From positions 34,617,681-34,681,680 of the forward strand of contig NC_088786.1 of NCBI RefSeq assembly GCF_949628265.1: a DNA stretch of 64,000 bases, written 5' to 3'. Both the position numbers and the translations under genes were made by a program. The stretch is from Cloeon dipterum. Lineage: Eukaryota > Arthropoda > Insecta > Ephemeroptera > Baetidae. Below are positions 1 to 11,966 of this stretch, piece after piece; the stretch's first letter is position 1, and each line of letters opens with the position of its first letter. A model generated the notes under the pieces. That model saw only the letters and a program-made list of their open reading frames with translations, had not been told where the DNA came from and ran no database searches.

Positions 1-220
1 TTTCGGCTGAGCAATCCTTCCTTCAGTCACTAGCGAAGGAAATTGATTGATTTATTTAAAAAATAAATACTGTTCCGTCCGACTCTCCACTCCTCGCACG
101 GTTTACGATGAGAAATGCAAGTGTACGTACATACAGACGATGAGAACAATATTTATGATACACTAGATCGATCGGGAAACAATCTGCAACAATGGTCGCT
201 GGCCTCTTCTTCGTTCACCT

Positions 221-718
221 CTAACTATCACAGGATGCGTACTTGGCCGCGGGGAACTCGGTGGTGGACTCGTCAGAGTCCTCGTAGAAATACCTCTGCT
301 TGGGCGACAAGCCGATCTTGAGCCTTCTCACAGCCTCCTTGATCAGGCTGCCGTCCCGGAGCAGCTCCTGCAGTCTCTCGTACGGGTCCTCGGACGAGGC
401 CGCCGAGCCGTGGGCAGTCCGTTTCCTTCGGCACAAGCACTTTTCCTTGCACGGGCAGCTCGTGGAGAAGGACGTGGGGTAGGGTGAGGCTCTGCTGAGC
501 CGGCGGGACGAGTGACTGCTGCCGCGGTGGTGTTTGAAGCCCGTTAACCTGAGATTCTCCTTGATCTCGCACACCAACTGCTCCATGTCCTGCGAGAGGA
601 AGGCCGCCTCGGCGCGCATCGCAGGGTGATTCTCGGCCGCCACCGGGTCGCTGCTGCTCACCGCCGTGTCCACGAAAGGGAAGCTCGACGACAACAACAA
701 CTGCTCCTTGCTCGGCAT
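221..718 (-). CDS. FRAT/GBP-like GSK-3 binding protein, single coding exon
   Basis: The frame encodes 165 residues in one exon. Near the C-terminus (about residues 110-132) it reads DPYERLQELL then DGSLIKEAVRRL. This matches the GSK-3 binding helix of vertebrate FRAT1/FRAT2/GBP, whose core is SGNLIKEAVRRL preceded by DPHRLLQQL. FRAT proteins bind GSK-3, compete with Axin and can favour Wnt/beta-catenin signalling in the cytoplasm. The middle holds a basic Cys-rich patch (CPCKEKCLCRRKR) and the N-terminal half is Ser-rich and probably disordered. A minus-strand AATAAA lies at 51-56, about 165 bases past the stop. The start at 718 is the first ATG of the frame; a 5' noncoding exon may exist. 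FRAT proteins are about 230-280 residues, so this one is short. The family call rests on the C-terminal motif and is firm there; the rest is not recognisable. Confidence 0.75.
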   Translation of the reverse strand: MPSKEQLLLSSSFPFVDTAVSSSDPVAAENHPAMRAEAAFLSQDMEQLVCEIKENLRLTGFKHHRGSSHSSRRLSRASPYPTSFSTSCPCKEKCLCRRKRTAHGSAASSEDPYERLQELLRDGSLIKEAVRRLKIGLSPKQRYFYEDSDESTTEFPAAKYASCDS

Positions 719-4510: not shown

Positions 4511-5662
4511 TCAAGCAGCAACACCTGAAACACAAAAAAACATTGATTTTGAGCAACGTAAGCTTATAACGCAATAGATTTCGAAATTATTTTATTACAT
4601 ATTTTTTCGTAAATTTGTTGTGTCGTAATCAGTGACTCACGAACCGATTTTTAGATTTTTATCCTCAAAAAATAATAAAATGCGACCTTCTAACATTTGT
4701 GTGCATGCATATGTATTTATTTTCCGGCGGCAGACCGTGGAACTGCCGCGAGGTCACCGGCTAGACCTTCAGAATTATCTCAAGCGACGCGCAATTACCC
4801 GAAATCAGGAATTAGGGGCCCCCGGAATTTATTGTAATCAGTTCGGAGGAGCTGAAACGTGACTTGTGATTGTAAAAAGTGACATCATTCGGCGGAAGCC
4901 ACTTTTAGAGTTGGGTGCGATTCGAAAATCGACCATGTGCACGCGTCGTCGACCTGAATTTTCATTAGAAAATACAATTCTGGGTCAAGCAACGTCAGAT
5001 GCCAAGTGTCACGCCGGACATTTCCTTTGAGGCGTTGCAAGACTGCAAGATGGAGGTGCAACAACCGCAGCGGAATAACTGTGCATGCAGAAACGAGAAG
5101 AAACGCGCTACGCTGCGAGCTCCGACATGTCAGCTATCTGCATTCTTAGCAGCCGCGGCTCCGCCATTTTTGATTCGACACAACGATCGTCGCCCAGCGA
5201 AGCGTGCGATGCATCCGACCGAATTCGGCATTTTAATCGGGGAAAAATGATCTCACCTCGTTCCTTGCACTCGCGACTGAAGTGGCCAGTCTTGCCGCAC
5301 TGGTAGCAAGCCCTGTTGCTCTGCTCTTTGCAGTCCCGGGCCAGGTGTCCGGTTTGGTTGCAGTTGAAGCACGACTGCTCGCGGTATCCACCGCTGGAGC
5401 CGCCGCCGCCGCCGCTTCCGCCGCTGGCGCCGCCGCTCTGACTGCAGTCCCTGGCGATGTGTCCGACTCCGTTGCAGCGGTAGCAACGGTCCTGGTCCTC
5501 GGTGCACTCGCGGGCGAAGTGTCCGAAGCGGTTGCACTTGTAGCATTTTCCGCCGCCGCGACTCTCGCGGTTGTCCATGCGACGGTCGCCGCCGCCATCC
5601 TTGGTGCATTCACGGGCGAAGTGGCCCACATTGTTGCATCTGTAGCACACGGACGCGCTCAT
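4511..5662 (-). CDS. CNBP: CNBP-type CCHC zinc-knuckle nucleic-acid binding protein
   Basis: Two coding exons are seen: 5257-5662 and 4511-4524. The protein has 139 residues with five CX2CX4HX4C zinc knuckles (such as CYRCNNVGHFAREC, CYKCNRFGHFAREC and CYQCGKTGHFSREC). A Gly/Ser-rich spacer separates knuckles three and four, and an Arg/Gly-rich stretch separates the first two. CNBP proteins bind single-stranded DNA and RNA and help translate structured or TOP mRNAs. The donor CGAG/GTGAG at 5257/5256 joins the acceptor TTTGTGTTTCAG, adding only Gly-Val-Ala-Ala and the stop. Vertebrate CNBP has seven knuckles and fly CNBP about six, so this one is short. The 732-base intron (4525-5256) shows no other exon. 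The identity is firm; the tiny last exon is less so. Confidence 0.88.
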
Positions 5663-6660: not shown

Positions 6661-9600
6661 TCAAGTTTCAGACAGTATGTCCTCAATTGTTGCATCCTCG
6701 TCAGGCAGAGGGGAATTTGTGCTCTCCAGAAATTCACGTAACTCCTGATCAAAGTCAGGCGACACTTCGATCTCTGAAGCTTCTGCTTTGTCTTTCGCCT
6801 TGTCGGGCTTCCCTTTGTCCCTCTTATCTGCCGGGAATGATTCTAGGGTTACGCCCATGGCTTTCCGTACTGACGACACAGGGGCGATCATTTCGGGCGA
6901 GACTTGCTTGGCCAAGTCAGTCAGGTTGTCAGTGATTTTCTCAGCTGCGGATTCAAAAAAAATAACAGCTGCCCACAGCATTGGAAATAGGAAAACGTAC
7001 CTAACTGAACCTCGCTCTCTGACGGGCCTTGAAGTAAAGCCAAATGGGCTGGCACCGGCTGGGACAATCTAGCGTTCTGGACTTTCTGGAGTTGTCCAAT
7101 TAGCTGCGAGGTTTGGTCCAGTGAAGCTTGGACACCATCGGCTGTCAGGATGACAGGTTTTGATCCCTCAGTTGGAATTTCTATACAGGATCAGGAGCAG
7201 TCAATAAATAATGTTTCGAAGCTGTGTCGGGGTCAGCAATCATACCTAGGTTGTCAAGGAAACTCATATCGATTCCCAGTTCTGAGAGGCCTTTCAAAGC
7301 GTTCACGTCCACGTCTATTTTAGGTGTTTTTGATGTTTCCAAGTCAAATTTACTTTAAGAACAAAAATAATCAATATGATGAGGCCTAAGGAGTAGACAA
7401 AATGTTTGAAGAACTTACAAAGGTTCTGGTGGCACTGTTACTGGAGCAGGCTTCTGTCGAGCAGGAAGTTGTGCGATGGTTTTAGAATGCTCTCCGCCAG
7501 TCAAGATATCTAGCAGCTCGTCGACCATGTGCAGCGCATAATCACTATCTCTGGCGAAGTCCAGAATGCTGAAACATGATTTATTTTAATTTAAATATTG
7601 AAAGAATAATTTAAGAGGTGAAATATGATTTTTAATTATAATTTTTGACTCACTAAGGAATTAATGGAATGAAGACTAGACCAGTAGCATAATTTTTAAG
7701 ATATTAAAAGTAATTCTCCAGATGGCACAAGAATTTTTCACTTTTGTTAAATATATTAATTTTATTTCAATATACTGGCCATTCCAATCTTGGACAAAAA
7801 TCTCATTCCATCTATAGAGAATGTATTTCCCCATTTTTTTAAAAATATTTTTTACAAGTTAATAATTTAGAAAGAGTAATTTTGTCATGACGCGGAAAAA
7901 AATTTGATCCCCAACTTGCCACTTTGTAGCAAAAGCCCAAAGGTAAAATGGTTCAAAATCACTGTTTTACATCACGGGGCTCAAATTGAAGCTGATCACG
8001 TGTTTGTCGAGTGATTTCGGACAAATTTACCGCTGGCGAAAAAGTCCATCAGACTTTTGCTACAAAGTGGAAAGTTGGGGATCAAATTTTTTCCGCGGCA
8101 TGAACGATTTGATTTTATAATAAATTGTATAGGAGTTACATAGACACACGCGCTGCCTTTCAAAGTAAACTAAATACAAAAAAGAATTACCTTTCCGCAT
8201 ATTGAACACCAGTTTCATCACCATAGGTTTGATACACCAAGTCGGACTCTTCTTTGGTCAGGTTGGCAAAGGTTGAGTCGTAAGAAGGGGCATACGAGCC
8301 AAATGCACCATAATACAAAGGTTTCACTGCACACCATGAATTAGAAACAAGCACTCAACATAAGTTTCAACAGCAGTTACCTAGCTTGGAGAAATTCCTC
8401 TTGTCCTCTCTGAAACCAGCCAGCTGACCAGTACCATGCGGAATTTTACCAGCAAGCGAACCTAGGGTCATGGGCTGCTCGTTTGTTCCTGGTAGCACGC
8501 CATTGTTGCCACACAGGATGGCGAGCGACGTTGTGCCGTCTTTGTTCGTCCTCAAAAAGCCCATCTATACATTGAAAATAAATGTTGAATGTTTTCAGCT
8601 AATTTTCGACTGCTTTACCTTGCTGTAAGGTTTTGTTAGGGCCAGTTTCTGCGCCGCGTTGTGAGCTGCCTTTTGAGCTTGAGCGAGGATTTCTTCTGGA
8701 CTCATATCATCTGGGATAGCTTCAAATTTGGACCTGGTAACAAAAAAAAATCATTAGAATCAATTGAATCCTGAGGTCACAATATAATTACAGAGGTCTG
8801 TGTGGTTTTGACTTTCGCTTAGAGTCTTTCTTGGGTTCTTCGCCAGGCAGTGCTGACTCGGTTGAAGCTGGGGCAATCGAAGTGTTGCTTTCCCCATTTT
8901 CCACGGAGACAACCTCAGCAGCGCCTTCAATCTTTATAGCAGCATTCGCTTCATTTATTTTCTGCAGCTAAAGTATACAACAATAATTAAAAGATTGAAT
9001 TCTTCAGAGTGACCAAAACAATACCTCTTCTGGAGTGTGCAGCTCAAAGCCCAATTCAGCAGGAGTGCAGTCAAAGAGGCAAGGGAGGGACGGTGCAAGG
9101 AGCTTCAATTTGTCCTTGGTCAAAATTTTCAATCCGCCATGCAGAAGACGTTTAGCGGCCCTGTAGTAAACAGTCTCCTGCTGGTTGTAGGTCATGGCGT
9201 TCGAGCACATCAGTTTAAAATCATCCTGCCAAATAATCCATTAGCAGATGTTTCGTTTATTCATTGCCAAACTCTCACAGTGAACTGTGGCAAATTTGTG
9301 TAGGCTCCATCCTCATTTTTCTGCCTCATTGTACTGAAGTCCATCGGTTGACTGATAATGGAGCTGTAGCCTGGCGCAATGTTGTCAGTCACTGGCCAAG
9401 CAAAAAAACTTTGGCTATCCTTTTTCTCCAAGTTCTATTGTTACCATATAAGTTGATTAGAATTCATCAATAATTACAAACTTCAAATTAAATACTTTGA
9501 GGAGGTAGTCTAACAGCTTGTACAAAGGTGAGTGTTCCTGGCGTTGACGTAGAACGCAAGACCGAGGTTCTCTACCTGAATGGTCCATTTCTTCTGAATT

Positions 9601-10332: not shown

Positions 10333-11222
10333 GACTTGTAGAGCCTAATGAATAGCTACGAAGATCCAAATTCCACTTGAGATCGACGGAATCGCGCGGA
10401 GCAAGCTGTTTGTTTACTTGCCGCTCAGAACCACAACCAAAACACAGTCATGCCAGTCATACAACACAGTGGGTGTGGGTACAAGCCAGTATAAGCGATG
10501 CAGCGGGATGAGAGCGGGATGCAGTACATGGGTACAGTTCAGTACATAAGTTTCACGTGTGTCGATCAACTCCGAACGAACACGAAGGCACAGAGTTGAT
10601 TGGCTGAGCATGAAGCACGCACCAATAACATTCAGCCGGCAGCCGGTTTTAAATTTTGGCGCTAACACTCCTGATGTGAGATGCATGATAATTGATCGTA
10701 ATTCAAATTATGATTATACGGTACAAATAGTAGAGCTTTACAGGCCAACAGTTAAGAATATTTCGCATTGTGGGCTATAAAATTATAAAGCTTTCTTTCT
10801 CCCAAATTTAAACGAAAACCTTGGAAAAATTAACCACTGTCCCAGTTTTTTAGCGTGTGTATAGTTAAAAAATCTTAAATAAAATTATCACCTCTTTACT
10901 TCCAAATAAAATTGAATTAATTTAATAAGAACCTAAAATTTAATTTTCCCCGATTGCCACGTTACTTTCTGAGAAAATCGACACCTCAGGTTTGTCTTTG
11001 TCAGGATATCCTAATTTTTTCTTAGTTAGTTAGTCTAATAAGCTCAATGTTTCCATTCTTGTGTATACTAACATTACTAACAGTAGAAAAATTAATTATA
11101 TGACCAAAGAACTTAAACAATGAACATATTTTCTATTTTAAATATGATAGTGCGAATTCATTATTTTCTCCGTTTTGTTGGCTGTTAAATTGTTAAAAAA
11201 TTATTTCAATTATTATTGTTAC
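10333..11222. other. Intergenic, divergent between BRD7/9 and the 11.2 kb gene
   Basis: This stretch separates the start of the minus-strand BRD7/9 gene from a plus-strand gene. Promoters for both should be here. No distinctive motif or additional gene is seen; 10760-11200 is very AT-rich. Confidence 0.4.
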
Positions 11223-11966
11223 ATGGCTGGAAAGGTGCACGTTTCACAACTACCTGACGAAACTTTTATTGCGTTTCATTTCCCAGAAGTTGATGGAAAA
11301 GTCTGCAGGTAGAGATGGAAATGGTTGGAACATATCTTGGATCCCGAAGACCCCGTCGACCGTGGAGACAGGTTCCACTGGCGTCAGTGACTGGCTGAAG
11401 AAGAACAAGCAAAAGTGCGAGACGTGCAGCGAAGGTGGCAAGAAATGCTGCAGAAGGGACTTCAAGTACCCTTGTCTGCCCAACTGCGAATGCGTTTTGA
11501 TCCAAGTCTGGGCCAACCTGACCCTGACAGACAATATTCGAAAGGTATGGGAAGATTTTCTTACAAGGGCGGGGCAATTAAAATTTTTTTGTGTGCAGGA
11601 CAATGAAGAGAGGCGGAAATACGAGAAAAAGTTTCCTCCGGTCCCGCGAGTTTCCTGCGATCAAAAATTTTTGAATGCTTGGAGGGTGAAGCCTGATGTG
11701 ACGACGAGGCAATGTCAAAAATGGCATTCCTTGAAGAGGTCGATCATAACTCCACCGACCAAGGACACCAAGGGCATAAATTATGTTTGGCAAGGCTGGG
11801 ACCATTATGACAGTAAGGAAAAAATACATCAGACTTACTGCTATCAATAATAATAATTATTTTCTCAGCATTTGCGACCACAGCCTCGAATTATGGGGGA
11901 CACCCAACAAACCAAGCTCCATTGCCTGATGGGACCACACGGAGCAATCCTCAGCGAAAATTATAA
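11223..11966 (+). CDS. Unrecognised Cys-containing protein, four short exons
   Basis: Four exons (11223-11234, 11287-11544, 11599-11812, 11869-11966) join in phase to 193 residues. The three introns are only 52-56 bases and have good GT/AG ends. The protein starts MAGKKLMEKSAGRDGNGW. It has a Cys cluster at about residues 48-72 (CETC, KCC, CLPNCEC) and ends in a Gly/Pro/Thr/Asn-rich tail (SNYGGHPTNQAPLPDG). There is no signal peptide or membrane span, so it is probably cytosolic. I do not recognise the family. Its Trp/Tyr/Pro-rich short motifs recall small microtubule-inner or sperm-tail proteins, but that is a guess. The first four-residue exon is the weakest part; the ATG in exon two (residue 7) is an alternative start. 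It converges on mL42 with 117 bases between stops. Confidence 0.6.

Follow-up and report, generated by a model that had tools for sequence, protein, structure and literature searches.

A probable FRAT/GBP orthologue in the genome of the insect Cloeon dipterum

A FRAT/GBP-type protein encoded in an insect genome

We analyzed a stretch of 64,000 nucleotides from Cloeon dipterum, hereafter the window, and found near its left end a coding frame whose product resembles the vertebrate GSK-3-binding proteins FRAT and GBP. The frame lies on the minus strand at positions 221 to 718, stop codon included, probably consists of one exon and encodes 165 amino acids; it is delineated by the open reading frame itself, a match to the Pfam family PF05350 and codon periodicity. 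Judging from sequence comparisons, we estimate at about 85% the probability that 221-718 is an insect orthologue of vertebrate FRAT/GBP, divergent in sequence, present in one copy and coded by a single exon.

The original prediction, made from the letters alone, had proposed a FRAT/GBP-type GSK-3 regulator in an arthropod genome and named a profile search among the ways to check it. When Pfam's FRAT/GBP model (PF05350, GSK-3_bind) is run against the protein, it matches residues 94 to 134 with a score of 27.9 bits (E 2e-6), which passes the curated cut-off of 25 bits and places the similarity beyond chance. The same profile, searched against all six frames of the 190-Mb genome at E<=1, has 221-718 as its sole match (E 0.0014). 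In that scan, the stretch covering the GSK-3-interacting domain (GID) scores 24.8 bits when taken alone, just below the cut-off, and 27.4 bits when its in-frame neighbours are counted, above the cut-off. None of the 14 control genomes produced a match. These searches support the proposed FRAT/GBP-type assignment.

A Pfam scan of the protein at E<=10 returns PF05350 only, counted as one stretch, and in particular no match to the GSKIP domain (PF05303); the prokaryotic NCBIfam library has no match to it either. Viral contigs scanned for relatives yielded four pattern matches, none of them confirmed, which is unsurprising for an animal gene. When the 165 residues are compared as protein with the whole genome at E<=0.001, nothing besides 221-718 itself is retrieved. 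In the PDB, phmmer finds four matches at E<=5, one to FRAT1 (chain 5oy4_X) and the others to three distinct FRAT1 peptides. The best is 5oy4_X, with a whole-sequence E of 0.002 (0.039 for the best single stretch), and FRATtide (1gng_X) is matched with an E of 0.0042. The GID segment of FRAT1 peptides crystallised with GSK-3 is present in the insect protein, as seen in its matches to 1gng_X, 3zrk_X (with relatives) and 4afj_X. Finally, the score of the whole-protein alignment to FRAT1 was equalled by none of 5000 shuffles (p 2e-4).

The GID itself, SSEDPYERLQELLRDGSLIKEAVRRLK, spans residues 108 to 134 (317 to 397, minus strand) within the PF05350 match and aligns without gaps to residues 195 to 221 of human FRAT1, with 15 of 27 positions identical and 20 positive. 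All nine residues of the LIKEAVRRL core are identical to FRAT1, and the close match to the FRAT GSK-3-binding helix asserted by the original prediction is upheld. The middle positions of the domain (DGS in the insect protein, SGN in FRAT1) coincide with the turn between the two helices of FRATtide. The two presumed GID helices have hydrophobic moments of 0.65 and 0.74; the FRAT1 values are 0.47 and 0.78. Ahead of the domain lies a Cys- and Arg/Lys-rich stretch (residues 87 to 102; 413 to 460, minus strand), which falls within a gapped alignment to FRAT1 starting at FRAT1 residue 165.

A second box and the remainder of the protein

A conserved N-terminal box is a feature of the FRAT/GBP family, and the insect protein has a candidate for it. 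Residues 42 to 58, SQDMEQLVCEIKENLRL (545 to 595, minus strand), align to FRAT1 residues 37 to 53, SGEVDRLVAQIGETLQL, with 7 of 17 positions identical and 13 positive. This similarity is weaker than that of the GID, and the two elements follow one another as they do in FRAT1. When shuffles were scored without gaps, the box was matched or bettered by 49 of 3000 and by 42 of 3000, and when all parts N-terminal of the GID are aligned to FRAT1 with gaps, 97 of 5000 shuffles score as high (p 0.0196); across these tests p is about 0.015-0.02. phmmer credits the box with 1.8 bits only. Residues 1 to 89 alone have no match to PF05350 at E<=10, a setting at which the HMMER filters let few matches beyond about 0.1 through, and a genome search with the FRAT1 box fragment gave no candidate and therefore carries no weight.

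On the C-terminal side of the GID, no similarity to FRAT1 is detected (p 0.43). Because GSK-3 binding needs only part of the protein, we take this unconserved tail as non-defining for FRAT/GBP. The family assignment depends mainly on about 40 residues.

Gene model and genomic setting

The minus-strand frame runs from an ATG at 718 to a TAG stop at 221-223, unbroken throughout, and its product includes DPYERLQELLRDGSLIKEAVRRL. The GC content at its three codon positions is 0.494/0.500/0.867. This is a coding signature, and it is stronger support than the length of the frame; a CNBP-like frame nearby follows the same trend (0.562/0.546/0.746). When the bases of the first kilobase were shuffled 2000 times, 10 of the copies held a frame of at least 165 amino acids, which makes frame length alone modest support. 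An in-frame TAG occurs five codons before the ATG, and an AATAAA polyadenylation-type signal lies at 51 to 56 (minus strand), 164 nt past the stop codon. With a complete frame between these marks, the sequence fits the one-exon gene that had been put forward. The encoded protein is probably largely disordered.

To the left, the neighbouring gene on the same strand is represented by a prolidase exon, at about 6900-7100 of the left-flank piece L003. To the right, also on the same strand, is the CNBP-like zinc-knuckle frame, at 5108-5662 of the window. The contig that carries them is 43.2 Mb long; the assembly comprises five contigs of 33-43 Mb and five small ones. The arthropod identity of the host receives indirect support from five 7tm_6 matches in the genome, this odorant receptor family being regarded as insect-specific; PBP_GOBP has one match. 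Both counts come from six-frame searches, which are weak for genes with small exons; for C. dipterum, 191 odorant-binding protein genes and 49 OR genes have been reported. The Arthropod_7SK model has no match in the genome and none in the controls, and carries no weight. Exact (TTAGG)5 is absent from both strands, and a tandem-repeat scan of three contig termini, out of ten starts and one end, lists no TTAGG-like unit.

Several further features were observed in the window and elsewhere in the genome. GC content of the window ranges from 0.345 to 0.513 in 2-kb steps, and scans of its 64 kb with Rfam (gathering threshold) and for tRNAs found no matches. On the plus strand, an exon at 28544-28993 matches Vitellogenin_N (PF01347, lipoprotein N-terminal region), another at 57185-57616 matches the AMP-binding enzymes (PF00501), and a 217-codon open frame at 11197-11850, with many Cys and charged residues, has no Pfam match at E<=0.01. 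Immediately beyond the left edge of the window, L003 holds an inverted repeat (8029-8162 and 8202-8335) whose 134-nt arms are 99% complementary and separated by 39 nt; it may be a foldback or MITE-like element. The MRJP/yellow family (PF03022) is matched 199 times in the genome, each match being an exon or half-exon and not a gene. Among the matches listed, very many fall in C2 at about 0.39-4.6 Mb, in open frames of ~200-290 amino acids, and one piece of this region (L032) contains three MRJP-like exons spaced 3.6-4.0 kb; the pattern suggests that MRJP-like genes have undergone a large lineage-specific expansion. In C1, at about 18.955-18.990 Mb, a yellow/MRJP cluster has several matches of equal score that repeat every 10,367 bases, as a recent segmental duplication in tandem or a duplicated stretch in the assembly would produce.

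Homology, convergence or artefact

The similarity might also have arisen by convergence: an unrelated insect protein may have evolved or acquired a short FRAT-like helical motif for the GSK-3 groove, in which case it would act like FRAT but belong to another family. It is the GID alone that passes the FRAT/GBP profile and nothing resembles FRAT1 beyond it on the C-terminal side; the groove is also a docking site for Axin and GSKIP (PMC11847078). However, the 15 of 27 residues retained in the GID, nine of them consecutive, are in our judgement beyond what docking alone should need. The second box, placed in the order seen in FRAT1, and a Met-Pro start in both proteins also speak against convergence, as does the single coding exon reported for mouse Frat3 (PMC8037846). 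We consider convergence unlikely, and the GID and N-terminal box, taken together, lend moderate support to homology.

Two more prosaic explanations appear weaker still. That 221-718 is no functional gene, its match having arisen by chance in a pseudogene or a non-coding open frame, gains something from the frames of this length in shuffled sequence (10 of 2000 for the first 1 kb), but it has to contend with the codon-position GC of 0.494/0.500/0.867, with a genome-wide profile E of 0.0014 and no other candidate, and with a frame unbroken from start to stop; we regard it as very improbable. A vertebrate FRAT gene that entered as a contaminant or through recent transfer would agree with the family's description as a vertebrate one (PMC6974163). 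Yet the location of the gene inside a 43.2-Mb contig, between the prolidase exon and the CNBP-like zinc-knuckle frame, is a strong argument against vertebrate contamination, and a transferred gene would be hard to reconcile with the lack of detectable FRAT1 similarity C-terminal of the GID. This last explanation is scarcely credible. Orthology to FRAT/GBP remains our preferred reading.

A predicted competitor of Axin for GSK-3

A single site on GSK-3 is contested by FRAT and Axin, so that beta-catenin signalling rises when FRAT sequesters GSK-3 (PMC6974163; PMC3529405). Since the insect protein has the GSK-3-competing piece of FRAT1 and little else in common with it, it would most likely act in the same way, competing with Axin for GSK-3. 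Under the mechanism that we propose, a helix-turn-helix GID (DPYERLQELL-RDGS-LIKEAVRRL) would dock in the groove of the GSK-3 C-lobe that Axin also uses, and the docked protein would displace Axin from GSK-3. Displacement of Axin would lead to less phosphorylation of beta-catenin/Armadillo and hence to a higher Wnt/beta-catenin output. The N-terminal box, which FRAT1 also has, would serve a second contact.

The host appears to be equipped for such an interaction. A GSK-3 exon of this genome agrees with human GSK-3beta in every one of 44 residues, 254 to 297 in the numbering of the 420-residue chain 1i09. The groove common to Axin, FRAT and GSKIP has been placed at residues 262-273 and 285-299 (PMC11847078); the identical span takes in the 262-273 helix and most of the 285-299 loop. 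As Axin needs the same groove, this conservation shows a competent partner rather than upkeep by FRAT, and is not FRAT-specific. Matches to the DIX domain at two places in the genome and two matches to the GSKIP domain (PF05303), located elsewhere than 221-718, show further candidate parts of the pathway in the host.

Implications for the history of the family

Invertebrates are said to lack FRAT in a paper of 2020 (PMC6974163). Set against that description, 221-718 would be a new member of the FRAT/GBP family and would imply an earlier family origin or losses. The candidate gene contradicts the absence of FRAT from invertebrates. Among the titles listed in searches of the open-licence literature, none described an arthropod FRAT, a result that does not imply absence from print. 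The original prediction, which took the family as not known from Drosophila, had put forward an older origin with loss in some insects, or convergence.

A clear insect member would place FRAT/GBP before the protostome/deuterostome split and imply losses. We think it likely that FRAT/GBP is no vertebrate invention but a GSK-3 inhibitor of bilaterian age, retained by one insect lineage or more and lost from others, and that a Wnt modulator dispensable in the mouse may keep an ancestral role in some insects. FRAT/GBP is needed for dorsoventral axis formation in the frog and dispensable for Wnt signalling in the mouse (PMC6974163). An animal with one detected copy offers a chance to ask what the original role of FRAT was. 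Since the insect protein scores above the curated Pfam threshold, protein databases may already contain relatives that have gone unnoticed.

Comparison with known GSK-3-binding proteins

The closest known counterparts are the members of the FRAT/GBP family, namely human FRAT1 and FRAT2, Xenopus GBP and mouse Frat3, which have in common with the 221-718 protein a GID with the LIKEAVRRL core. The Met-Pro start is shared too, and the likeness may extend to the weaker N-terminal box, placed as in FRAT1, and to the single coding exon reported for mouse Frat3 (PMC8037846). The differences are nonetheless substantial: FRAT1 has 279 amino acids whereas the insect protein has 165, lacks both the long acidic N-terminus and the Pro/Ala-rich middle, and ends in an unrelated tail; it is also the product of an insect gene. 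The GSK-3-binding helix of Axin differs in sequence from the FRAT-type GID. This Axin helix binds the same GSK-3 groove as FRAT (PMC11847078; PMC6974163). GSKIP (PF05303), reported as another binder of that groove (PMC11847078), belongs to a different Pfam family from the 221-718 protein.
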